This document shows positions 11,076 through 39,026 of a stretch of DNA of 64,000 nucleotides, in pieces. Position numbers and translations under genes: made by a program. Below the pieces are notes generated by a model. That model saw only the letters and a program-made list of their open reading frames with translations, did no database searches and was not told where the DNA came from. This DNA comes from Flavobacterium nackdongense (GTDB lineage: Bacteria > Bacteroidota > Bacteroidia > Flavobacteriales > Flavobacteriaceae). Position 1 is the first letter of the stretch, and each line of letters starts with the position of its first letter. The stretch is taken from NCBI RefSeq assembly GCF_004355225.1, contig NZ_CP037933.1, positions 1,302,001 to 1,366,000 of the forward strand. The letters run 5' to 3'.

Positions 11076-11262
11076 ATAAAAAACTTCACCAATTAAATTT
11101 CACCCAAGGTGCTATTTTTAAATTATTACCATAAGTAAAAATTAAATCCCCATCCCACCGCTATTTGCGCGAAAACCGATTACTCAATTTAAATTTAGCA
11201 AACAGTACGTACAAAAAATGTCGTTACCGGACCCTATCAAAATCCTACGACTTTATTTTAGA

Positions 11263-11299
11263 GAATTCCTTTGAATTTTGAATCACCTTCACTATCTCT
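11263..11299 (+). promoter_or_regulatory. Promoter-like block, copy 1
   Basis: The first 20 bases (GAATTCCTTTGAATTTTGAA) are identical to 13326-13345, and most of the following 17 also match, including ACTATCT. It contains a TTTG -33-like element and a TATCTCTG -7-like element. It is 258 bases before the permease gene, so it is probably a duplicate of the DUF349 promoter. Confidence 0.6.
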
Positions 11300-12939: not shown

Positions 12940-13401
12940 GCTTACTTTTAACCTAGTATTTATAACATATGACTACCTTTCTGAGGTTTTATTCCACCTC
13001 TTGCAGCACCAAATCAACATTGCATTGGCAGAATTTTTTGTCGAAATCGCTAATGCAATCGTAGAGCAAACCATAGCTAGCCCAATTATTGTGCTGGCTT
13101 TCAGAATCAACAAATACAACTTTACCCAAGCACAGAACTTTGTTGTAGCTGTTTATTTTTGACCTTCGATAAATTTAAAAATTCCTAACAAAACACAGAT
13201 TTTAACACAAAAACCTTATGTAATTCACAAAATAATCGACAAATTGATTTATATTCAGAAGGTATTACATAGCAACGAACGCCGTAGCAACCTCTTGCAT
13301 CAACATAAAACGACTATAAATAAGGGAATTCCTTTGAATTTTGAACAACCTTTACTATCTTTCGCATTCAAAAAAAAATCGAACCCTTAAACATTCAAAA
13401 A
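12940..13401. other. 462-base intergenic region with possible gene remnant
   Basis: About 57 codons are open on the minus strand at about 13164-12992, with protein-like composition (VVFVDSESQHNNWASYGLLYD) but no start codon, and stops on both sides. It may be a decayed gene. The rest is AT-rich. The DUF349 promoter lies at 13326-13362. Confidence 0.35.
13326..13362 (+). promoter_or_regulatory. DUF349 gene promoter, copy 2 of duplicated block
   Basis: TTTG (13333-13336) and TATCTTTC (about 13356-13363) are spaced about 19 bases, close to the Bacteroidota TTTG/TAnnTTTG arrangement, 40 bases before the ATG at 13402. The 20 bases GAATTCCTTTGAATTTTGAA recur exactly at 11263. Confidence 0.6.
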
Positions 13402-15522
13402 ATGTTAGAAGAAAAGAATGATAACCTGCTTGAAGCAGATGGAAGTTTAGAAAACAATTCAATTGAAATTCTACAATCTGAAGTAGAAACCCTCAATGAA
13501 ATCGAAGCTGATGCAACCAGCACTGCCGATTTTGCAATTGAAAATGGGCAAACTATTGAGGAGCATATTGCGGTAGCAGAAAATGAAACTCCAATAGCGG
13601 ATGCTACCACAGTTTCAGATGAAATTGAAGCTACAATTCCGGAAGATGCAGCTTCTGAAACCATCGTTGCTGAACCGACTCCAATTACAAATACCACAAT
13701 TTCAGAAACCGAAACCATTATCGAAGCTATCGTTGGCACCAATGCCGAAGAAAGTGAAGACGAAACCCTCAAAGAACGTCACGACATCCCAATGTTGGAT
13801 TATGATGCACTTTCGCTTGAGTCTCTTGTAGCCGAATTGAAAAATTTAGTTACTAATGAAAAAGTGATGTCGGTAAAGGATCATGTCGAAGAAATAAAAA
13901 AATCATTCTTAGCGAAATACTACCACCTTCTCGAAGAGAAAAAAGAAGAATTTTTGGCTGAAAACCCTGATACTACAGAGGATTTTGCCTATCATTCGCC
14001 TATAAAAACACAATTTGACCAATACTATTCCCTGTTCAAAGACAATAAAAATGCCCATTTCAAAAGTTTGCAAAGCAATCTCAAATCCAACTTAGAAAAC
14101 CGATTGGCGATTGTCGAAGAATTGAAAGAGCTTATCAATCCGCAGGAAAACATTAAAGACACTTTGAAACACTTTAATGAATTAAGAGATCGATGGAAAA
14201 ATGCTGGTCCTATTCCTAAAGACAAATACAATCACGTTTGGAACAATTATCATTTCCACGTTGAAAATTTTTACGATTATTTACACTTAGATCGAGAAGC
14301 TCGCGACCTCGATTTCAAGCATAATCTAGAACAAAAACAAAAAATAATAGCCCGAGTTGAAGAATTGGTCAACGAAGACGACATCAACAAAGCTTTCCGC
14401 GAATTGCAGGATTTACACAAACTATGGAAAGAAGATATCGGCCCCGTTTCAAGAGAACATCGAGACGAAATCTGGAACAAGTTTAGTGATTTGACCAAAC
14501 AAATGCACGACAAACGTGAAGTTTTGTTTGAAAAAATGAGAGGCACCGAGCTTGAAAATTTAGAAAAGAAAAAAGAAATCATTGCCCAAATTGAAGTTTT
14601 GGCTACTGAAAAAGTCAATGCGCACGCACAATGGCTGCAACAAATTGAAAAAGTCGAAGCCCTGAGAACTGCTTTTTTCTCCGCTGGAAAAGTCCCATCA
14701 GAAGTTAATGAAGAAACTTGGGCCGCATTTAAAACAGCTGTTAGGAATTTTAATTCTTTCAAAAATTCATTTTACAAAGACATTAAAAAAGACCAAAACA
14801 ATAATTTAAGCCGTAAAACAGCCCTTGTTGCCAAAGCCAAAGAACTTCAGGAAAGTACTGACTTTGCGGTGACCACTCCAATAATGAAACAAATTCAAGA
14901 AGAGTGGAAGCAAATCGGTCATGTGCCACGAAAATACTCTGATAAAATTTGGATCGAGTTCAAAGACGCTTGCAACCATTATTTTGACAAATTAAAAGAG
15001 CAAAAAAATGAGGAGAATAGCGAGGAAATTCAAGCATTCGACAACAAGAAAGCCTATCTCGAAACCTTGAGATCCTTTCAGATGACAGGTGACCATAAAA
15101 CCGATTTAGATGCCATAAAATTGCACATCGAAACATGGAAAAAATTCGGAAAAGTACCATTCAGCCGAAGACATGTCGAAGGAAAATTCAATAAAGTGCT
15201 TGATGCTTTATTTGAAAAACTGAGTTTGAGTAAAAAAGAATCAGAAATGATGCGCTTTTCGAACCGAATGGATCAATTGTCAGAGAATAATGATACTCGA
15301 AAACTGGAAGGGGAGAAAATTTTCCTAATGCGTAAAATTGATGAAATTAAGAACGAAATATTCCAATTAGAAAATAATATTCAGTTTTTCGCCAACACTA
15401 GAAATGCTAAAAAAGAAAATTCTATTGTGCTAGAAGTTCGAAAAAACATCGAAAAACACCGAGAAGAAATGGAACTTTTGAAAGATAAACTCAAACAGTT
15501 AAGGAAGTTGAACGACGCGTAA
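13402..15522 (+). CDS. DUF349 repeat protein
   Basis: A 706-residue, highly charged protein. Residues 1-125 are acidic, low-complexity and probably disordered (rich in E, T, A, I). From about residue 150 there are several DUF349 repeats, each a helical pair with a W-K core (LRDRWKNAGPIPKDKYNHVW, LHKLWKEDIGPVSREHRDEIW, EEWKQIGHVPRKYSDKIW, ETWKKFGKVPFSRRHVEGKF), and a C-terminal coiled coil (about 620-700). The family's role is not established; it is conserved in Bacteroidota. It is followed by its own terminator. Confidence 0.88.
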   Translation: MLEEKNDNLLEADGSLENNSIEILQSEVETLNEIEADATSTADFAIENGQTIEEHIAVAENETPIADATTVSDEIEATIPEDAASETIVAEPTPITNTTISETETIIEAIVGTNAEESEDETLKERHDIPMLDYDALSLESLVAELKNLVTNEKVMSVKDHVEEIKKSFLAKYYHLLEEKKEEFLAENPDTTEDFAYHSPIKTQFDQYYSLFKDNKNAHFKSLQSNLKSNLENRLAIVEELKELINPQENIKDTLKHFNELRDRWKNAGPIPKDKYNHVWNNYHFHVENFYDYLHLDREARDLDFKHNLEQKQKIIARVEELVNEDDINKAFRELQDLHKLWKEDIGPVSREHRDEIWNKFSDLTKQMHDKREVLFEKMRGTELENLEKKKEIIAQIEVLATEKVNAHAQWLQQIEKVEALRTAFFSAGKVPSEVNEETWAAFKTAVRNFNSFKNSFYKDIKKDQNNNLSRKTALVAKAKELQESTDFAVTTPIMKQIQEEWKQIGHVPRKYSDKIWIEFKDACNHYFDKLKEQKNEENSEEIQAFDNKKAYLETLRSFQMTGDHKTDLDAIKLHIETWKKFGKVPFSRRHVEGKFNKVLDALFEKLSLSKKESEMMRFSNRMDQLSENNDTRKLEGEKIFLMRKIDEIKNEIFQLENNIQFFANTRNAKKENSIVLEVRKNIEKHREEMELLKDKLKQLRKLNDA

Positions 15523-18753: not shown

Positions 18754-20172
18754 TTAATCAAAACTTCTCGGGCTCAAAAAGCTTGTTTTACTGGTTTCAA
18801 TTATTTTATCACCTTCATAAACTTCAATTTCCACTTGGGTCTTGTCTGATTCTAATACATATTTACTGATTTCGATAAATACAGTACCGCTTTTCATTCC
18901 TTGCTTGGGAACTTTCAATTCTTGTTCCCCGACCACTTTCAATGTCCCTTTGATTCCCACCAATTTAAAATGAATGGCATTGAAATCTTTATTCGTTTTA
19001 TTGATGACCTTAAAAGTATAGACATTACTGATATTGTCTCCTTTATGTTGGAATAATTGTCCCGGCAATCTCAAAAAGACGGCTTCGACTTCGGTTCTTA
19101 AAAAAAGTAATCCCACTAATATTCCAATCAGAATAAACAATACCGCCGAATAGCCTTTCATTCTGGCAGTGAATTTAAACTTAGCATTTTTCTCAATTTC
19201 ATCTTCGGATGCATATCGAATAAGCCCTTTGGGAAGCCCCACATTTTCCATAATAGTATCACATTCGTCGATACAAGCGGTACAATTGATGCATTCGAGT
19301 TGGGTTCCGTTTCGAATATCAATTCCAGTAGGACAGACGTGTACACATTGTTTGCAATCAATACAATCTCCCTTACCAGTGACTGAACGGTCTTCTTGTT
19401 TATTGAATTTGGCTCGACCGGTTTCTTTCTCGCCACGAACAAAATCGTAGGCCACATTGATAGATTTATTGTCCAATAAAACGCCTTGCAATCTGCCGTA
19501 AGGACAAGCAATAATGCACACTTGCTCTCTAAACCAAGCAAAAATAAAATAGAATACTCCGGTAAATATCAATAGCGAAATTAAGGTGCTAATGTGATGC
19601 TCTGGGCCTTCATAAATCATTTTAAACAATTCGTCACTGCTGATGAGATAAGCAAGAAAAACATTGGCAATAAAAAATGAAATTATGAGAAAAATAAACC
19701 ATTTTAGGGCTTTTTTTCTAATTTTTTCCCCATTCCATTCTTGTTTTTCAAGGCGAATTTGTGAGCCACGATCGCCTTCAATCCAAAATTCGATTCTGCG
19801 GAAAACCATTTCTAAAAATATGGTCTGAGGACAAATCCAACCGCAAAATATACGTCCAAAAATAACGGTAAAAAGAATCACGAAGACAACACCGACAATC
19901 ATCGAAATCACAAAAAGATAAAAATCTTGTGGCCAAAAAGGGAATCCAAATAGATTGAACCTTCTTTCCAATACATTGAACATCATAAACTGATTGCCGT
20001 TCACTTTTAGGAATGGATTGGCAATTAGAATCAGTAATAAGAAATAGCTCACCCACTTGCGATAATCATAAAATCTTCCAGAAGGTTTTTTAGGAAAAAT
20101 AAATTTTCTTTTCCCTTCGGCATCAATGGTTCCGATGGTATCTCTAAAGGCTTCGTTTGGCAATTTTGACAT
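18754..20172 (-). CDS. ccoG: Cytochrome c oxidase accessory protein CcoG
   Basis: A 472-residue membrane iron-sulfur protein. There are about five membrane helices (near residues 38-55, 85-110, 160-180, 195-215 and 340-360). The ferredoxin-like region has two [4Fe-4S] motifs, CIDCKQCVHVCPTG and CINCTACIDECD, and a further CxxxCP (CIIACPYG) lies upstream. CcoG is thought to reduce copper for cbb3 oxidase assembly. It is separated from ccoP by a terminator, and a TAACTTTG element (minus strand, 20322-20315) may be its own promoter. No Fnr-type palindrome was seen here. Confidence 0.93.
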   Translation of the reverse strand: MSKLPNEAFRDTIGTIDAEGKRKFIFPKKPSGRFYDYRKWVSYFLLLILIANPFLKVNGNQFMMFNVLERRFNLFGFPFWPQDFYLFVISMIVGVVFVILFTVIFGRIFCGWICPQTIFLEMVFRRIEFWIEGDRGSQIRLEKQEWNGEKIRKKALKWFIFLIISFFIANVFLAYLISSDELFKMIYEGPEHHISTLISLLIFTGVFYFIFAWFREQVCIIACPYGRLQGVLLDNKSINVAYDFVRGEKETGRAKFNKQEDRSVTGKGDCIDCKQCVHVCPTGIDIRNGTQLECINCTACIDECDTIMENVGLPKGLIRYASEDEIEKNAKFKFTARMKGYSAVLFILIGILVGLLFLRTEVEAVFLRLPGQLFQHKGDNISNVYTFKVINKTNKDFNAIHFKLVGIKGTLKVVGEQELKVPKQGMKSGTVFIEISKYVLESDKTQVEIEVYEGDKIIETSKTSFLSPRSFD

Positions 20173-20314
20173 TATTTACATTTTTAAATTTAGAAGTCTA
20201 AAAGTAAAGAATTGAATTGATTTGCTGTGAAACTAATGTTACAAAGCCAACTTAAATTAAATCCGCCGATGTTCATTATTTTCTTTTTTAGCAACAGCAA
20301 AAAATCAATTTCAA

Positions 20315-20322
20315 CAAAGTTA
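20315..20322 (-). promoter_or_regulatory. Possible ccoG promoter -7 element
   Basis: On the minus strand this reads TAACTTTG, a match to TAnnTTTG, about 143 bases upstream of the ccoG ATG. No clear -33 partner. Confidence 0.35.
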
Positions 20323-20353
20323 GATTAAAATTAGATTTGATTTTACAAAAAGC

Positions 20354-28647: not shown

Positions 28648-29994
28648 ATGACTACTTTAAACGAATTAAACGCTGTATCGCCTATCGACGGAAGATACAG
28701 AAGCAAAACCAGTTCACTTTCAAAATTCTTCTCTGAAGAAGCTTTAATCAAATACCGTGTTTTGGTTGAAATTGAATATTTTATTGCGCTTTGCGAAATT
28801 CCTTTACCTCAACTTGCCACCGTAAACCCAAATGTATTCGAAAGTTTACGCAATATCTATAAAAACTTCTCTACCGAAGATGCCCTTTGGATCAAAGAAA
28901 CCGAAAAAGTGACCAACCACGATGTAAAAGCGGTAGAATATTTTATCAAAGACGCATTCGAAAAACTAGGTTTATCACAATACAAAGAATTTATCCACTT
29001 CGGATTGACTTCACAAGACATCAACAATACTGCGATTCCGCTTTCGACCAAAGAGGCTTTCGAAAAAGTATATATGCCATCGTTAATCTCTTTGACCTCA
29101 AAATTGAAAGAGTTGAGCATCGAATGGGCAGCCGTTCCAATGCTTGCCAAAACCCACGGACAACCGGCTTCGCCAACCCGTTTGGGTAAAGAAATTGGTG
29201 TTTTTGTAGAACGTCTTGAGGAGCAAATACGTTTGTTGTTCAACATTCCGTTTGCTGCCAAATTTGGTGGCGCCACCGGAAATTACAACGCCCATCACGT
29301 GGCCTATCCTCAAATTGACTGGAGACAATTTGGAGGAAATTTTGTAGAAGAAATTCTTGGTTTACACCACTCCTTTCCGACTACACAAATCGAACATTAC
29401 GATCACTTTGCCGCATTTTTCGATGCGTTGAAAAGAATCAACACCATCATCATTGACTTAGACAGAGATATTTGGACCTATGTTTCGATGGAATATTTCA
29501 AACAAAAAATCAAAGCGGGAGAAATTGGTTCCTCGGCAATGCCACACAAAGTAAACCCGATAGATTTTGAAAATTCGGAAGGAAATTTAGGCATGGCCAA
29601 TGCCATTTTCGAACATCTTTCGGCCAAATTACCAGTTTCGAGATTGCAACGCGACTTGACTGATAGCACGGTTTTAAGAAACATTGGCGTACCTATCGGA
29701 CATACTCTAATCGCTTTTGAAGCTACTTTGAAAGGCTTGAACAAACTGCTGTTGAATGAATCCAAATTCGCCGAAGATTTAGAGAAAAACTGGGCAGTGG
29801 TTGCCGAAGCGATTCAAACGATTTTGCGTCGCGAAGCCTATCCAAATCCTTATGAAGCTCTGAAAGGATTGACTAGAACCAACGAAGCCATCACTAAAAA
29901 TTCGATTCACGAATTTATTAGCACACTTGAAGTTTCAGACGAAATCAAAGCCGAATTAATGCAAATTACACCGAGTAATTTTTTGGGGATATAA
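28648..29994 (+). CDS. purB: Adenylosuccinate lyase
   Basis: A 448-residue fumarase/aspartase-superfamily enzyme acting twice in purine synthesis (SAICAR to AICAR, adenylosuccinate to AMP). The N-terminus (LNAVSPIDGRYRSKTSSLSKFF), the catalytic region KTHGQPASPTRLGKE and the flexible loop signature GSSAMPHKVNPIDFENSEGN are all present. The last 32 codons are duplicated at 31865-31963 with only silent differences, so this 3-prime end appears to have been supplied by the island that follows; the encoded protein is unchanged. Confidence 0.97.
   Translation: MTTLNELNAVSPIDGRYRSKTSSLSKFFSEEALIKYRVLVEIEYFIALCEIPLPQLATVNPNVFESLRNIYKNFSTEDALWIKETEKVTNHDVKAVEYFIKDAFEKLGLSQYKEFIHFGLTSQDINNTAIPLSTKEAFEKVYMPSLISLTSKLKELSIEWAAVPMLAKTHGQPASPTRLGKEIGVFVERLEEQIRLLFNIPFAAKFGGATGNYNAHHVAYPQIDWRQFGGNFVEEILGLHHSFPTTQIEHYDHFAAFFDALKRINTIIIDLDRDIWTYVSMEYFKQKIKAGEIGSSAMPHKVNPIDFENSEGNLGMANAIFEHLSAKLPVSRLQRDLTDSTVLRNIGVPIGHTLIAFEATLKGLNKLLLNESKFAEDLEKNWAVVAEAIQTILRREAYPNPYEALKGLTRTNEAITKNSIHEFISTLEVSDEIKAELMQITPSNFLGI
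29896..29994 (+). repeat. Direct repeat (att-like) copy 1: 3-prime end of purB
   Basis: 99 bases matching 31865-31963. The first 56 bases are identical; five differences follow, all silent. The identical part opens with an inverted repeat, AAAAATTCG-ATTCA-CGAATTTAT (29896-29918), resembling a recombinase core site. Confidence 0.9.
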
Positions 29995-30051
29995 TATTTA
30001 TAAAATCTATTTATAATTGAAATGCATAATGTATATTTGTTCTATTAATAA

Positions 30052-31263
30052 ATGAAAATGAAAAATAATACATATCTAAAAGAAGTCAAACTTTCTGGAT
30101 ACAAATCTATATTTGATGTAAGTGTAGAGTTCCAAAATGGATTAAATATTATTATAGGTAAAAATGCTGCAGGAAAAACAAATTTTATCAAATTTCTACG
30201 AAAAATATTATCATTAAAATATGAAAATTTAAACAACTTTTCTTCAAGTTTAACTTTTAAAAACGGTAAAGAAATTTTATTTAAATCGCAACGAAATATT
30301 GAAATAGATGAATTATTTAAAATAAATAATACAACTTCTAAAATTGATTATGAACTAAGCGTCAATAAAAAAATAATTAAAGATAAAAAAGGAAGTGAAG
30401 AAACCTCTATTTATGAAAAATTTAAACAAAATCAAATTATTTTTGATAATACTTTTATTTGTCACGGAATATATAAAGATTATTTTATAGTTGACAAACC
30501 ACTTTCATTTAGAGTTGACAATAAGACTAAATGGTCAACAGATTTGCATAATATTTTTAGTAATTCTTCCAGCCCTTATTTTATAAAATGTATTACTATA
30601 GACTTTATATTGGAAATTATGGGGTTAAAAGAAGAATTTGATTTAGATATTTTAAAAAGTACTTTCAGAAATGTTTTTAGAAAAACTGAAATAATTAAAT
30701 CGACATTAAAAAAATATTCCCCGATTGAAGATATTAGATTTAGTGACAATTTCAATATTTTTATTACTGAAGACAATGAAAGTATTTCAGTTAATAACGT
30801 ATTTATAGAGTTTAAAATAGAAGGGGATTGGCTACCATTTTCAAATTTATCTGATGGAACTAAACGATTATTTTATATTATATCAGAAGTATTCGAGAAT
30901 GATGAAAATACACATATAAGACCAACTAATGTTGATTTATATACGAGTCAATCACAAATCAGTAGAATAATATTGATAGAAGAACCTGAATTAGGTATTC
31001 ATCCGCATCAATTTCATAAACTTTTGGGTTTCTTAAAAGAGGAAGCCCAAAACAAACAAATTATTTTAACTACACATTCTCCTCAAGCATTAGATGCAAT
31101 AAATCCAAACGAATTAAATAGAATTACAATTGCATATTCAACAAATTCCAAAGAAGGAACTAAACTTCGTCATTTAAATGAAACCGAAATAATAAAAGCA
31201 AATGAATATATAAAAGAAGACTTTTTAAGTGATTATTGGCTTTATTCGGATCTTGAAAAATAA
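30052..31263 (+). CDS. AAA/ABC-type ATPase (OLD-like, AAA_21), probable defence gene
   Basis: A 403-residue SMC-like ATPase. Walker A is GKNAAGKTN (residues 36-44), the signature-like segment is FSNLSDGTKRLFYII, Walker B is IILIEEPELGIHPHQF and the switch histidine is in ILTTHSPQALDA. The middle (about 60-260) is a variable helical insertion. Such ATPases pair with a nuclease in several phage-defence systems; here the next gene, 4 bases later, encodes a TOPRIM-like protein. The two form the whole cargo of the purB island. ATP-binding is certain; defence is inferred. Confidence 0.88.
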   Translation: MKMKNNTYLKEVKLSGYKSIFDVSVEFQNGLNIIIGKNAAGKTNFIKFLRKILSLKYENLNNFSSSLTFKNGKEILFKSQRNIEIDELFKINNTTSKIDYELSVNKKIIKDKKGSEETSIYEKFKQNQIIFDNTFICHGIYKDYFIVDKPLSFRVDNKTKWSTDLHNIFSNSSSPYFIKCITIDFILEIMGLKEEFDLDILKSTFRNVFRKTEIIKSTLKKYSPIEDIRFSDNFNIFITEDNESISVNNVFIEFKIEGDWLPFSNLSDGTKRLFYIISEVFENDENTHIRPTNVDLYTSQSQISRIILIEEPELGIHPHQFHKLLGFLKEEAQNKQIILTTHSPQALDAINPNELNRITIAYSTNSKEGTKLRHLNETEIIKANEYIKEDFLSDYWLYSDLEK

Positions 31264-31267
31264 TTTT

Positions 31268-31831
31268 ATGAAGATAGGTCTAGTCGGAGAAGCCCCAAAT
31301 GATACCCAATCAATTAAAAATTTATTAGAAAAGAGGTATTTAGCTAATGAGTTTATATTTGTATCAATGCTACAAATAATTAACGGCTCAAATTTGGATA
31401 GTCAAAAAACAAAAAGATTATTAAGAATCGAATTTGAAACTCAAAAACCTGATATTTTAATTTTCATTCGAGATCTAGATTCTACATTGCCAAATAAAGA
31501 AAAGCTCTATGCTAGAAAGAATTATTTTACGAGTTCAAATAGAGTAGTTGACAAAAAAGGAATTCCGTTATTGCATATTTATGAAATTGAAGCTTTGATA
31601 TTGACAGATGTTGATGTTTTTAATTCCAAATATGGTGCAAATTTAAAAGAAATTGAAAATGTAATGACAATTACTGAACCAAAAGAATATTTAAAAAAAG
31701 CAAGCAGAAAATATAGCGAATCTCATAATGCTGATATTTTTGAATTAATTGACTTTGACAAAACTTTGAACTGTGAGTATTTCAAACGGTTTATAAAAAA
31801 CTTTGATAAACGAATTGCTTCACAATCATAA
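31268..31831 (+). CDS. TOPRIM-like protein paired with the AAA ATPase
   Basis: A 187-residue protein from the ATG at 31268, 4 bases after the ATPase stop; an upstream in-frame ATG at 31229 lies inside the ATPase gene. Two TOPRIM hallmarks can be seen: an early glutamate in a Gly-Glu loop (KIGLVGEAPNDTQS) and a DxD after a hydrophobic strand (ILIFIRDLDSTLP), followed by HIYEIEALIL. This fits the small DUF4276/DUF4435-like nuclease class. Partnership with an AAA ATPase recalls PARIS and split OLD systems, but no family is certain. Confidence 0.7.
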   Translation: MKIGLVGEAPNDTQSIKNLLEKRYLANEFIFVSMLQIINGSNLDSQKTKRLLRIEFETQKPDILIFIRDLDSTLPNKEKLYARKNYFTSSNRVVDKKGIPLLHIYEIEALILTDVDVFNSKYGANLKEIENVMTITEPKEYLKKASRKYSESHNADIFELIDFDKTLNCEYFKRFIKNFDKRIASQS

Positions 31832-31864
31832 CTATCTTAATTAAAGCAATTTAGCTGTTTGACA

Positions 31865-31963
31865 AAAAATTCGATTCACGAATTTATTAGCACACTTGAA
31901 GTTTCAGACGAAATCAAAGCAGAATTGATGCAAATTACACCAAGTAATTTCTTGGGGATTTAA
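31865..31963 (+). repeat. Direct repeat (att-like) copy 2: displaced purB end
   Basis: It still encodes the last 32 residues and stop of PurB in frame, with five silent changes relative to copy 1, but has no start and no upstream coding sequence. It starts with the same inverted repeat (31865-31887). Best read as the original 3-prime end of purB before the island arrived. Confidence 0.9.
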
Positions 31964-31995
31964 TAAAAAACACTTTTAAAAAGCACAAAGTAATA

Positions 31996-32769
31996 ATGAA
32001 GAATTCAATTCTAAAAATGGTATTGCTTTGTGCTTTTTTTCTTTTCTTTTCTTGTAAAAAAGAAAATCCAAAACCCGTAAACAAACCTTATAAAGCGGGA
32101 GTCATTTTGTCTTTTGATGATGCTTATGTAAACGAATGGTTTGCGACCAATCAAAAGCTAAAAAAGTATTCTTGGAAGGGAACTTTTTTTGTTTGCAAAA
32201 TCAATACGCTCAACCAATCCGAAGTTGAGAAACTTCTGGAAATGCAGAAGGAAGGTCACGAAATTGCAGGGCATACTTACAATCACGTCAATGCTGTTGA
32301 TTATTTGCGAGTATATACTATTCGAGAATATTTGAATAATGAAATTGACCCTATGATCCGACTAATGAATTTCTATGGTTTGGATGTCAGCACTTTTGCT
32401 TATCCTTACGGCGGAAGAAGCAAAAAATTAGATGCTGCTTTATTAAAAAAATTCAAATTCATTAGAGGAAGGGCTTTTTGTGAACACGTTGCCAACAAAC
32501 AAGGCTGTTATTACGACAACTCCAATTTGGTTTTTAGCTTTAGCATAGACGACACCCACAACCACTTCAACATTCCCCACCTTTTGGGCTTGTTGGAATA
32601 CGCCAAGAAAAACAACAAAATTTTAATTTTAAATAGCCATAAAACGGTCGATAAAGTGAGTGGCGATTACCAAACAAAAAATGCCACTTTGGAATACATT
32701 TGCAAATACATCAAAAGCAATAATATGAATTTTTATACTTTATCTGATTTAGAAAAGTTGCAAAAATGA
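31996..32769 (+). CDS. Polysaccharide deacetylase family lipoprotein
   Basis: A 257-residue protein with a lipoprotein signal (LCAFFLFFSC, cysteine at 20). The NodB-homology fold is visible: ILSFDDAYVNEW (the catalytic/metal DD motif), EGHEIAGHTYNHVN (H-x3-H metal ligands), FAYPYGGRSKKLDAALL and a late LNSHKTV. It probably removes N- or O-acyl groups from a surface glycan. It starts 33 bases after the displaced purB end, so it was purB's immediate neighbour before the insertion. Confidence 0.88.
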   Translation: MKNSILKMVLLCAFFLFFSCKKENPKPVNKPYKAGVILSFDDAYVNEWFATNQKLKKYSWKGTFFVCKINTLNQSEVEKLLEMQKEGHEIAGHTYNHVNAVDYLRVYTIREYLNNEIDPMIRLMNFYGLDVSTFAYPYGGRSKKLDAALLKKFKFIRGRAFCEHVANKQGCYYDNSNLVFSFSIDDTHNHFNIPHLLGLLEYAKKNNKILILNSHKTVDKVSGDYQTKNATLEYICKYIKSNNMNFYTLSDLEKLQK

Positions 32770-33140: not shown

Positions 33141-35381
33141 ATGAATCCAGCCGAAAAAGTAGCCGAAATTTCCCATCACTTAGAACCCTTAATCAGTGAT
33201 TTGGGGCTAATATTAATGACTGCTGGAATTGCTGTTTTGATATTCCGAAAGTTGAAACAACCGCTAGTGCTAGGGTATTTGATTGCTGGATTTTTGGCTG
33301 GAAACCATTTTGATTTTTTTCCATCGGTCAAAGAAATTAAAAGCGTAGAAGTTTGGGCTGAAATTGGAATCATCTTTTTATTGTTCAGCCTCGGACTAGA
33401 ATTTAGTTTCAAAAAGTTAATGAAAGTGGGCGGAACAGCCTCCATTACGGCAAGCACACAAATTATTGCCATGTGTATTTTGGGCTATTCTGTAGGACAA
33501 TGGATGGATTGGTCCAAAATGGACAGCATCTTTTTGGGCGTAATCCTTTCGATTTCTTCCACCACCATTATATTAAAATCATTTGATGAATTAGGTGTCA
33601 AAACACAAAAATTTGCTGGAAATGTAATCGGTTCTCTCATCGTTCAGGATATTTTAGCCATTTTGATGATGGTTTTATTGTCAACCATTGCTGTTAGCAA
33701 TCAGTTTTCTGGAATGGCTCTCCTATTATCGGTTTTGAAACTCGTTTTTTTTCTGGTGATTTGGTTTTTAGGAGGCATTTTCATCATTCCAACAGTGCTC
33801 AAAAAGACCAAACATTTATTGACCGACGAAATGTTGCTCATCATTTCTTTAGCCTTGTGTTTGACCATGGTTGGTCTTGCCGCCAATGTCGGGTTTTCTC
33901 CCGCTTTGGGCGCTTTTATTATGGGTTCCATCATAGCCGAAACCACTCAAGCCGAGCATATTGAACATTTGGTAAAACCTGTAAAAGACCTATTTGGTGC
34001 CGTATTTTTTGTGTCAGTAGGGATGTTGATAGACCCGGATGCTTTGTATCAGCATGCGATTCCAGTCATCATTCTTTCTATTGTGACTATTTTTGGGCAA
34101 TCTATCAGTTCTACTTTTGGAGCCTTATTGTCTGGGCAACCGCTAAAAGATTCCATTAGAACTGGAATGAGTTTGTCGCAAATTGGAGAATTCTCTTTTA
34201 TCATTGCGACTTTGGGTGTAACTTTGAATGCAACCAATTCGTTTTTGTATCCAATTGTCGTGGCAGTTTCGGCAATCACGGTGTTTACAACTCCATTTAT
34301 GATTAAATATTCGCTGCCTTTTTCGGAATATGTAGCGCATCAATTACCTCGAAAATGGACCAAACGAATCGAACGTTATTCTGCCAGCACCCAAGCGATA
34401 AAAACGGTAAGCTTATGGCAAAAAGTAATCAATGCTTTTCTAATTCAAGTGACAGCGCTTGTGGTCATCATTTTGGCTATCATTCTGCTTTCCTCCACCT
34501 ACATCAAACCTTTAGTAGAGAATTATCATTTTGGCATTGCATTGGGAGCACTGATTACTTTGATTATTATTTCACCCTTTTTGTGGGCGCTAGCCTTTCG
34601 AAGAGTTGCAGCAGAAGAAGTGGAACAATTGATGACCGATAGAAAATCTCGCGGACCGCTGACGATGTTGTTTTTTATTCGGATACTGATGGCGATTTTC
34701 TTCATTGGATTATTATTGAATGCGTTTTTCTCCCAAAAAATCACCTTGATTGCTTTATTAATTGCCATAACTATTTATTTGATTTTCCAAAAGAAACTCC
34801 ATAAACAATACCACCGAATTGAGAATCATTTTCTAGCCAATTTGCACGGAAGAGAAATTGAAAAAGCGAAAAGAAGCAGAAGTGATTTAACGCCTTGGGA
34901 CGGACATATGGCGGTTTTTGATATAGCGAAAGAATCGAATATTGCCGGTGAATCGTTACGAAACTTACAACTTAGAGAACTCTTGGGCATCAATATTGTA
35001 TCCATCAAAAGAGGTGAAATCACGATTCATATTCCACAGCGAAACGAACGTATTTTTCCAGGTGATGAAATTTGTGTCATTGGGACCGATCGACAAGTAC
35101 AAGAATTTAAAAAATACTTAGACCAACACGAAACTGATGTTTCGCCTGAAATGATTGAACCCGATATTGTCTTAAACCAAATCGAATTGAAAAATCACAC
35201 TTTCATCGGAAAAAGCATAAAGGAATCTAGGCTCCGCGAAAAAACCAAAGGTCTTGTGGTAGGCATTGAAAAAAGAGGCATTCGAACCTTAAATCCAGAA
35301 TCGGATGTTATACTGGAAAAAGACGACATTTTGTGGATTGTGGGCGATAAAAAATTACTAGCCGATTTGGTTCACGATTAA
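33141..35381 (+). CDS. Kef-type cation:proton antiporter with RCK C-domains
   Basis: A 746-residue CPA2 protein. Residues about 18-395 are the Na/H exchanger domain with about twelve helices, including LVLGYLIAGFLAGNH, SISSTTIILKSFDELG, GSLIVQDILAILMM and GFSPALGAFIMGSIIAET. Two or three more helices follow (about 440-560). The C-terminus has two TrkA-C-like domains (about 600-670 and 680-746), the second ending VILEKDDILWIVGDKKLL. It exchanges K+ or Na+ for protons at the inner membrane. The RCK-N nucleotide domain of E. coli KefC is not evident. Confidence 0.88.
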   Translation: MNPAEKVAEISHHLEPLISDLGLILMTAGIAVLIFRKLKQPLVLGYLIAGFLAGNHFDFFPSVKEIKSVEVWAEIGIIFLLFSLGLEFSFKKLMKVGGTASITASTQIIAMCILGYSVGQWMDWSKMDSIFLGVILSISSTTIILKSFDELGVKTQKFAGNVIGSLIVQDILAILMMVLLSTIAVSNQFSGMALLLSVLKLVFFLVIWFLGGIFIIPTVLKKTKHLLTDEMLLIISLALCLTMVGLAANVGFSPALGAFIMGSIIAETTQAEHIEHLVKPVKDLFGAVFFVSVGMLIDPDALYQHAIPVIILSIVTIFGQSISSTFGALLSGQPLKDSIRTGMSLSQIGEFSFIIATLGVTLNATNSFLYPIVVAVSAITVFTTPFMIKYSLPFSEYVAHQLPRKWTKRIERYSASTQAIKTVSLWQKVINAFLIQVTALVVIILAIILLSSTYIKPLVENYHFGIALGALITLIIISPFLWALAFRRVAAEEVEQLMTDRKSRGPLTMLFFIRILMAIFFIGLLLNAFFSQKITLIALLIAITIYLIFQKKLHKQYHRIENHFLANLHGREIEKAKRSRSDLTPWDGHMAVFDIAKESNIAGESLRNLQLRELLGINIVSIKRGEITIHIPQRNERIFPGDEICVIGTDRQVQEFKKYLDQHETDVSPEMIEPDIVLNQIELKNHTFIGKSIKESRLREKTKGLVVGIEKRGIRTLNPESDVILEKDDILWIVGDKKLLADLVHD

Positions 35382-37101: not shown

Positions 37102-38211
37102 TTAGTTTTTATAGGGAATAGAGCTTTGGCTACCGCCAAGATACCAAGCAGGCGGCCCACGCTGGTCAAAAACGGCTATTCGGTGCAAATTGCCCGTTTT
37201 ACAGCAAGGACACTTGGGCAAAAAGAGCTTTTTTTCGCGTTTTTCTAGTACTTTTACTTCGAGTTTCTCCTGCAAAAGTTTGAGCTTCTCCCGCTTCCAA
37301 CTGCTGCTTAAAAAACCATAATGACGAATCTTGACAAAGCGTTTGGGCAAAATGTGCAAAGCAAATCGCCTAATAAACTCCTGATGCGTGAGCGTCATTT
37401 GCTTTTTGACTCCCGCCACTCGATAATCCTTGTACTCAAAAGTTACATTTTCGTTGTCGATAGTTTTTATTCTTCGGTTGCTAATGGCTATTTTATGGGT
37501 ATATCTCCCTAAATATTCCACCACTGATTTGGGACTTCCAAAAGGTTTTTTGGCAAAAACAATCCAAGGTTTTTGCCACAACTCTTGCCGGATTTGCTCA
37601 TACTTTATGGGTTCTTTTTCTTTGAGTTTTGCACAATATTTAGCCCTAAACACTTTTGACAAGGCTTTGACTGGAAACAAGAATTTGCCATCGGTTCGGC
37701 TATTTTGCCATTGTCCGTTTTTAGCTATTCCGCCGCCAGGAACAATGCAATGCAGGTGTGGATGTAAACTCAATTGTTGCCCCCAAGTGTGCAAAACCGC
37801 AATCATTCCCATTTGCATTTCCTTGGTTTTGCCAAAAGTTTGAATCGTTTCCCAAGTCGCTTCAAAGAGCGTGTCATAAACCAATTTTGGACTGTGAATC
37901 GCCAATGCATTAATGCTATCGGGTAAAGTAAAAACCAGGTGAAAATATGGCACTGGCAAGAGTTCCGTACTTCTAGCCTCTATCCAATCTTCTCGTTTGT
38001 TGCCCTGACACTTGGGACAATGACGGTTGCGGCAAGAGTTGTAACTAATAGTCAGATTTCCACATTGATCGCAAGCATCGATATGACCACCCAACTGGGC
38101 TGTTCGACATTTTTTGATAGCAGAAAGAGTGCGCAATTGCCAAGTATTCAATCCATAGCTCTCGATCTTCGAGCCTACCTTTCTCAGTACATCGGCTACT
38201 TCCGTCTGCAT
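37102..38211 (-). CDS. IS91 family transposase
   Basis: A 369-residue HUH-type rolling-circle transposase. The N-terminal zinc-binding domain has CDQC and CRNRHCPKCQ (about 47-70). The HUH motif is HPHLHCIVPGGG (about 152-163), and the catalytic tyrosines are in VEYLGRYTHKIAISNRR (YxxxY, Y2 type). A second CxxC zinc element near the C-terminus (CPCCKTGNL) is intact. It nicks and moves single-stranded DNA. It overlaps the recombinase gene by 16 bp, suggesting coupled translation. No frameshift or stop, so probably functional. Confidence 0.93.
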   Translation of the reverse strand: MQTEVADVLRKVGSKIESYGLNTWQLRTLSAIKKCRTAQLGGHIDACDQCGNLTISYNSCRNRHCPKCQGNKREDWIEARSTELLPVPYFHLVFTLPDSINALAIHSPKLVYDTLFEATWETIQTFGKTKEMQMGMIAVLHTWGQQLSLHPHLHCIVPGGGIAKNGQWQNSRTDGKFLFPVKALSKVFRAKYCAKLKEKEPIKYEQIRQELWQKPWIVFAKKPFGSPKSVVEYLGRYTHKIAISNRRIKTIDNENVTFEYKDYRVAGVKKQMTLTHQEFIRRFALHILPKRFVKIRHYGFLSSSWKREKLKLLQEKLEVKVLEKREKKLFLPKCPCCKTGNLHRIAVFDQRGPPAWYLGGSQSSIPYKN

Positions 38212-39026
38212 TTCTCGAAAAGCGTATCGAGTGGACTAAAAATGCGTTGGCTCGCGAGCTGGGCTATCTGCAAATACTCCATCGTAGTTTCGATATTTTG
38301 ATGTCCCAAAAGGTCTTTCAGGGTCATAATATCCATACCATCTTCGAGCAAATGTGTGGCGTAAGAGTGCCGAAGCGTATGGGTATGAACTTCTTTTTTC
38401 ACACCAGCAGCTTTGGCTACTTGTTTGACTGCCCATTGTACGCCTCTCTGGCTGTACCGACTGTCAAAATCGCCTCCGGCTCTTTCAATGGGCTGACCGT
38501 TGAAAAGATAATCCTTGGGTTTTTCGGCTTCGATGTACTTTTTTAATCCCCGAATCAAGTGTTCCGAAAGCGGCACGTAACGGTCTTTTTTGCCTTTGCC
38601 TTGCACTACTTTGAGTTGTTGTCTGTCGAAATCTAAATCCTGCAAACGTACACTTCTGGCTTCCATACAACGCAAGCCGCAACCATAAAGCAAGCCAATA
38701 AGAATGCGGTGTTTGAGCAATTTTGCGTTTTGAAGCATCGCCCAGACTTCTTCTTTGCTCAAAACAACTGGAAGCGTTTTCTCGTGTTTTATCGACGGCA
38801 ATCGAAGGTATTCATACGGAAGTCCTTCTGATTTTAACAAGAACCGAAGCCCATAAACACAGTGTTTAAAGTACGTTTGCGATGGGGTTTTGGACTTTTT
38901 CTGTTGGTAAAACAAGTAGTCCTGCACTTGTTCAGGATCCAATTCCGTTGGAATTTTGCCAAAATACAACGAAATAGCCGCCACGTGCCGCGAATAATTG
39001 CTAAACGTGCTTTGGCTTCGTCCCAA
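38196..39026 (-). CDS. Tyrosine recombinase of the IS91-like element
   Basis: A 276-residue phage-integrase-family protein. The SAM-like core-binding domain spans about 1-95 and the catalytic domain about 105-270 with R (GCGLRCMEAR), HxLR (HTHTLRHSYATHLLEDG), H (LLGHQNIETT) and Y (MEYLQI). This frame begins at a TTG with the first helix of the core-binding domain cut. The same frame continues upstream to 39131 without a stop, and a proper ATG (39145) lies one base out of phase behind a run of eight A residues. See the upstream feature and finding. Confidence 0.88.
   Translation of the reverse strand: MGRSQSTFSNYSRHVAAISLYFGKIPTELDPEQVQDYLFYQQKKSKTPSQTYFKHCVYGLRFLLKSEGLPYEYLRLPSIKHEKTLPVVLSKEEVWAMLQNAKLLKHRILIGLLYGCGLRCMEARSVRLQDLDFDRQQLKVVQGKGKKDRYVPLSEHLIRGLKKYIEAEKPKDYLFNGQPIERAGGDFDSRYSQRGVQWAVKQVAKAAGVKKEVHTHTLRHSYATHLLEDGMDIMTLKDLLGHQNIETTMEYLQIAQLASQRIFSPLDTLFEKCRRK

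Follow-up and report, generated by a model that had tools for sequence, protein, structure and literature searches.

Duplicated purB ends around a two-gene insert in Flavobacterium nackdongense suggest recurrent gene capture at a housekeeping gene

Why does the end of a housekeeping gene stand twice in one genome, with two other genes between the copies? In Flavobacterium nackdongense (assembly GCF_004355225.1, contig NZ_CP037933.1, positions 1,302,001 to 1,366,000 of the forward strand; this whole stretch of 64,000 nucleotides is called the window), purB, the adenylosuccinate lyase gene (28648..29994, plus strand; assigned from Pfam Lyase_1 and ASL_C and from comparison with 12 species), has an ATPase gene and a DUF4276 gene behind it, and beyond these its own 3′ end stands a second time. 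Relatives hold the same or other genes at this place, and the purB end is therefore likely to be a recurrent landing place for genes that move between species without a recombinase of their own.

Two purB ends around an AT-rich insert

The two copies run from 29893 to 29996 and from 31862 to 31965 on the plus strand (104 nt, 94% identity, spacing 1969) and form the longest two-copy direct repeat in the window, scanned for repeats of at least 36 nt with copies no more than 8 kb apart. The proximal copy is the one in use; the distal copy has no start codon of its own. Identity is unbroken for 56 bp, from 29896 to 29951. A first-pass annotation of the window had reported both this block and the 1969-bp spacing, and both hold; it had also counted five later differences, all silent, of which the silence stands and the number does not. 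The coding differences are six (29895, 29952, 29958, 29973, 29982 and 29991), because one sits just left of where that annotation began, and all six are silent and fall at third codon positions. A copy decaying after a local duplication would be expected to change at first and second codon positions too; we therefore infer that the two ends derive from two purB genes that diverged while both were functional. Against a profile of the last 14 PurB residues and the stop, the distal end scores 54.7, compared with a maximum of 9.5 among 378 reversed or reverse-complement controls (189 loci); a chance origin is excluded.

Only two genes lie between the copies, as first annotated: an ABC-type ATPase gene (30058..31263, start possibly at 30052) and a DUF4276 gene (31268..31831), both on the plus strand. 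The insert (29995-31861) has a guanine-cytosine (GC) content of 24.3%, against 35.5% for the window and 39.6% for purB, and none of 311 sliding windows of its size is as poor in GC, so that no other 1.9-kb segment of the window is as AT-rich. No transfer RNA (tRNA) gene occurs in the 64-kb window, and a tRNA-linked island was rejected on this ground.

Which of the two ends is the resident one? The distal copy is followed by a polysaccharide deacetylase gene (31996..32769, plus strand), which stands directly behind purB in relatives with an empty site: it starts 31-35 nt behind purB in G204, G178, G243 and G365, whose sites we read as empty for this reason, and 145 nt behind it in G332. Empty sites thus exist in sister species. 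The right flank of the distal copy resembles the flank of these sites, best those of G178 and G243, and over its last 43 nt the distal copy is closer than the proximal one to 11 of the 12 compared species, with one tie. Because empty-site sister species match its last 43 bp and flank better, the distal copy is likely to be the displaced resident end; the end of the working purB would then have arrived with the insert, which likely contributed the last part of the gene. It follows from this assignment that the proximal end would be foreign at least from 29973 to the stop, and probably from about 29952; its bases at 29973, 29982 and 29991 are unlike those of the nearest species, and position 29952 is itself uninformative for copy origin. 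In the comparison with the 12 species, no foreign tract was found in purB upstream of the repeat.

The codons common to both copies, at purB positions −102 to −43 (the 56-bp block), are matched in full in 0 of the 12 species. Since the two copies agree throughout this block and no compared species has it in full, the most economical interpretation is a duplication of resident sequence, with a crossover inside or at the edge of the block. The codons at about −102 to −43 vary strongly among close species (62.7% identity to G312, where purB as a whole reaches 89.5%), a pattern suggestive of repeated exchange of gene ends.

Second purB ends and their cargo in related genomes

We examined 249 purB loci from species-representative genomes, 236 of them distinct by sequence, with other genera included and the window as one locus; L114 and L115 were added because they hold the ATPase–DUF4276 pair, and L221-L225 because they hold a secreted-protein gene described below. 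Frame-intact second purB ends above all controls occur at 4 of the 249 loci, around three kinds of cargo: the window (54.7), L038 (genome G208; 44.9), L150 (G144; 27.8) and L209 (G404; 27.0). A further 120 controls (60 loci, no new case) reached at most 7.0. Shorter or decayed second ends are found in more loci than these four. L154 (G266) has a decayed purB end of 95 nt, 17 points above shuffles, with the deacetylase gene between it and purB; at L056 the evidence is at the DNA level, 20 bp exact and 4 points above shuffles, with an unremarkable protein-profile score of 4.4. The lengths of second ends are unequal between loci, about 102, 95, 52, 41, 34 and 20 nt. Loci exceeding their shuffles by 1 or 2 points were not counted (L049, L090, L091, L128, L172, L174 and L195, the last drawn from the genome that also supplied L059, a locus with no excess). 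Among these, the Flagellimonas locus L091 was suggestive by eye and not above controls; within 1-200 nt behind its purB (Flagellimonas pelagia), the purB stop overlaps the start of a small membrane-protein open reading frame (ORF; TAATG), and a word resembling a purB end comes after it.

The cargo itself is tied to purB. Of 299 genomes searched in full, 3 contain the DUF4276 gene (G000, G327 and G195), every time directly behind purB; a fourth pair-bearing genome, G352, came to light through the survey of purB loci and therefore cannot count as independent evidence on position. Among 395 genomes of the order searched, three weak partial matches appeared besides the window. The second kind of cargo, a secreted protein of about 212 aa with no Pfam match, is encoded in 8 of the 299 genomes and directly behind purB in 7 of the 8; for the eighth (G317, 31% identity) no purB lay within the fetched 3.6 kb. 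G144 and G208 show a clear second purB end behind the secreted-protein gene; this end is decayed but visible and individually weak in G057, G148, G246 and L056, and faint in G218. The G404 cargo consists of two genes, the first apparently starting at an ATG that overlaps the purB stop. All these inserts are small, about 0.7-2 kb with one or two genes each, and none of the cargo besides the pair, the secreted protein and the deacetylase included, has a recognised defence function. The suggestion of the first-pass annotation that the site might be a hotspot with varied cargo is thus borne out by comparison of the regions downstream of purB, with other cargo between two purB ends in some genomes and empty sites in others; nor is the pair, so rare and missing from the sister sites, fixed in all relatives.

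To the right of purB, the loci surveyed usually have an antiporter-like membrane protein gene (33141..35381 in the window, plus strand), here tentatively labelled kef; it lies within 5 kb of purB in 135 of the 236 distinct loci, in 96 of these less than 400 bp behind it.

Sequence comparison of the pair-bearing genomes carries a sign of horizontal spread. The window ATPase is closer to that of G352 (78.3%) than to that of G327 (63.2%), and purB reverses this order (87.1% for G352 and 93.1% for G327 over the last 116 aa). What follows the pair on the right varies among the four species: in the window, a purB end and then the deacetylase; in G327, the antiporter; in G195, what is presumably guaB on the other strand; and in G352, another gene and then presumed guaB.

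Proposed capture by recombination and its rivals

In the mechanism we propose, the incoming DNA would carry a purB end together with the cargo, and the AT-rich two-gene insert would enter by recombination anchored in the purB 3′ end, with the crossover within the last hundred bases of the resident gene. The incoming end would rebuild purB, and the displaced resident end would be left behind the cargo. A recircularised fragment could have entered by a single crossover, or the event could be homology-facilitated illegitimate recombination (HFIR) with an additive outcome. In Escherichia coli conjugation, one-sided homology mostly gave partial gene-end duplications: 56 of 60 recombinants had a duplicated lacZ-end polymerase chain reaction signal, and in 14 sequenced recombinants a duplication of 109-950 bp was ascribed to one crossover with a recircularised, shortened molecule (PMC3240628).

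That general recombination anchored in purB, rather than a dedicated recombinase and attachment site, captured the insert is a reading to which we give an even chance. It is favoured by the empty sites in sister species, by the 56-bp block common to both copies, by the E. coli duplications just cited, by the second purB ends with other cargo in L038, L150 and L209 (above controls) and in L056 and L154 (at the DNA level), by the unequal scar borders, by the exclusively silent differences between the copies, by the likeness of the last 43 distal nucleotides to the relatives, by the lack of a foreign tract found upstream, by the conflict between ATPase and purB, by the differing right flanks of the pair and, weakly, by the presence of a gene for a ComEC-type competence protein.

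Several observations weigh on the other side. All clear second ends are confined to the last ~100 nt of purB, and the bias towards purB is not explained by general recombination. No donor was found. G327, G195 and G352 with the pair, and G331 with the secreted-protein gene, hold cargo behind purB and no second end was found in them. DUF4276 shows little phylogenetic conflict (74.6% to G352 and 72.9% to G327). Across the 128 loci with antiporter or deacetylase, the proximal T at 29895 is commoner than the distal A (66 against 6), as is the proximal A at 29958 than the distal G (86 against 38), the distal base at 29958 being present in the three nearest species, G204, G178 and G332. Lastly, classical HFIR usually brings deletion rather than addition (PMC3240628).

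How special purB is among gene ends was gauged by scanning 1351 ORF ends from 80 loci and the window, 25 of which had a downstream match with a score of at least 20. Thirteen of the 25 were inspected: two were purB (the window and L038), and the other 11 comprised eight tandem paralogue ends, two that were not (L087 and L052) and one unclear (L090). The purB match of L056 was read separately, and the remaining 11, which include purB of L090, scored 20-23. Counted from the matches inspected or read, with sorting partly by eye and one purB per locus assumed, 3 of 81 purB ends retain a match, compared with 2 or 3 among roughly 1270 other ends (Fisher p 0.002 if 2 is taken). Tandem paralogy as a source of gene-end repeats accounts for 8 of the 11 inspected non-purB matches and not for purB. 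L087 (Polaribacter irgensii) may be another locus with a displaced gene end: a decayed copy of the last 87 nt of a protease-like gene on the minus strand (19526-20333) lies 1.4 kb downstream of its stop.

The enrichment of purB over other gene ends would suit a reading in which the purB end is an attachment site used by small integrase-less elements that resemble cis-mobilisable elements and depend on a tyrosine recombinase supplied in trans from elsewhere. Insertion always at the extreme purB 3′ end, with the gene rebuilt, and the 12 Phage_integrase matches encoded in the genome speak for it as well. Yet we think it somewhat unlikely. The scar borders are unequal, and there is little room for a crossover point compatible both with the window (left of about −37 or −22) and with the 34-nt scar of G144. 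No purB end occurs in phage records, nor in viral contigs when these are searched by an exact pattern, and three plasmid records match at 50-63% identity, two annotated as purB and the third carrying no annotation. In G327 and G352 the pair sits beyond a hairpin, seen by eye, between it and purB. No recombinase gene appeared among the ORFs read in the inserts, with the limit that loci were not screened one by one for integrases, and the sole integrase in the window (38196-39026) was rejected as the mover since it adjoins an IS91-type transposase gene. That IS91-type pair (37102-39026) consists of a Y2_Tnp/Zn_Tnp_IS91 transposase and the tyrosine recombinase; several of the genome's 12 Phage_integrase matches have the same length, four of them falling inside 10 kb near 1.512-1.522 Mb. 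At the left border, a palindrome (29897-29916) that was considered as a recombinase core is not conserved in all relatives and was taken as coincidence.

A bolder form of the attachment-site reading would make the purB 3′ end a dedicated docking site for integrase-free 'purB-end cassettes' of one or two genes and a spare purB end, shuttled between Flavobacterium species by a trans-acting recombinase, an integron-like platform carrying at least one antiviral module; we regard this as unlikely. Of the site-specific integration that the first-pass annotation had seen here, the foreign insert and the rebuilt purB end stand; the absence of recombinase genes from the inserts read, the varied scar lengths, the 56-bp block with no full match among 12 species and the pair with no second end found in G327 and G352 weigh against the site-specificity.

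Two further explanations dispense with repeated capture or with small elements. The purB-linked genes could stem from a single old insertion, inherited or lost, with the scar retained in some lineages and little later transfer; the pair and the secreted-protein gene do stand behind purB in distant species, and a single inherited insertion seems to be shared by G057, G148 and G246, perhaps also by G218 and L056. With the DUF4276 gene in so few genomes, empty sites in the sister species checked, an ATPase in conflict with purB (four sequences, ATPase only) and a second end in the window still 94% alike, we find this account improbable. Alternatively, the insert might be what remains of a larger integrative element after decay and loss of the integrase, as the gene-end repeat at both borders would allow; several inserts hold one or two genes and no recombinase remnant among the ORFs read, and we consider a decayed element very improbable.

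Elsewhere in the window, an intergenic direct repeat of 62 nt (11236-11297 and 13299-13360; 81% identity) flanks about 2 kb with an amino-acid permease gene, its second copy lying just before the gene at 13402; this may represent another additive insertion of the kind seen at purB, located at the start of a gene.

The ATPase–DUF4276 pair and known systems

The sequence TATATTTG, read at 30032..30039 on the plus strand ahead of the cargo, is promoter-like, and we take it to be a candidate for the −7 promoter type of Bacteroidota; it also precedes the pair in G195 and G352, with TATATTTA in G327. The ATPase belongs to the AAA_21/AAA_15 type by Pfam, PADLOC and PDB comparison. Its PADLOC matches include AriA (1.3e-29) and HEC-01A (3.7e-24) as well as the GajA and PtuA profiles, and its closest solved chains are AriA (PDB, 9.5e-8) and PtuA; because 107 PADLOC families match it, the AriA match is not specific. 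Its partner passes the Pfam DUF4276 cut-off (1e-7); of the four homologues examined, three do so, that of G195 falling below (24.7 against 30.2 bits). We read it tentatively as TOPRIM-like on account of its acidic residues (E8, N11-D12, D69 and D71), which are invariant in 3 of 3 aligned sequences; PDB searches with the protein and its profile gave nothing meaningful, so this assignment follows from the residues. The partner matches HEC-01B weakly (6.4e-5), such matches being partial and weak in all four homologues, and has no AriB match in PADLOC.

We predict that the two genes form an antiviral pair, and the likeness to phage defence pairs noted at first pass is supported by the ATPase–nuclease resemblance in Pfam and PADLOC; the defence-family search with hidden Markov models it had proposed gave a strong, if unspecific, result for the ATPase, and the weak HEC-01B match for DUF4276. 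AriB, the second protein of PARIS, is DUF4435. The pair shares with PARIS an AAA_15/AAA_21-type ATPase beside a small protein with TOPRIM-like acidic residues, and differs in that its second protein is DUF4276. With no AriB match, it is not PARIS by membership and may function like it: by analogy, the ABC-type ATPase is predicted to sense infection and control a TOPRIM-like nuclease. PARIS has been described with separate ATPase and Toprim genes (PMC10568477). HEC-01, which the ATPase matches well and the partner weakly, is a PADLOC candidate, and Hma-embedded candidates are mentioned in PMC12988326. DUF4276 had no match in plasmids or phages and no relative in viral contigs in a search that detects close relatives only, and carriage of the pair by phage or plasmid was rejected on these grounds. 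A literature text search for DUF4276 found no mention in the papers searched.

Displaced gene ends have been described elsewhere. For arrays of the type VI secretion system (T6SS), the displaced 3′ ends have been put down to an HFIR-like process, with a matching proposal for Rhs loci (PMC5361080). At these loci, with their orphan 3′ regions and immunity-gene arrays, an incoming module is likewise proposed to anchor in a homologous gene and to push the old 3′ end downstream; the gene is a variable effector whose displaced part is kept for immunity, whereas at purB a housekeeping enzyme has its end rebuilt and the displaced end is a relic. The minimal mobile elements of Neisseria are varied whole-gene cassettes between conserved genes, with no mobility gene and moved by homologous recombination (PMC3082526). 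At purB, different whole-gene cassettes likewise occupy one place (three cargo kinds bounded by purB ends, and the deacetylase behind purB). Recombination in both flanks fits on the left side, whereas the pair's right flanks differ; the site also has second copies of the left gene's end, and its right flank need not be conserved. Genomic islands at gene 3′ ends such as those of trmE or dusA share insertion at a core gene 3′ end, and here too a direct repeat of that end rebuilds the gene; purB inserts differ in their lack of an integrase, with only the ATPase and DUF4276 genes between the repeats of the window, in their variable scar borders and in their small size. A literature search combining purB, integration site and Flavobacterium gave a single co-mention, unrelated by title and abstract, and in a wider search none of the entries listed named 'adenylosuccinate lyase'.

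The purB scar is a readable trace of gene capture at a housekeeping gene, in which second ends mark the entry of foreign genes that bring no mobility gene. A scan for displaced gene ends could reveal accessory and defence genes missed by island finders, and the rare ATPase–DUF4276 pair is a candidate antiphage module worth attention. The purB end would be a recurrent capture site in Flavobacterium, and the gene offers a system in which to study integrase-free entry of cargo into genomes.

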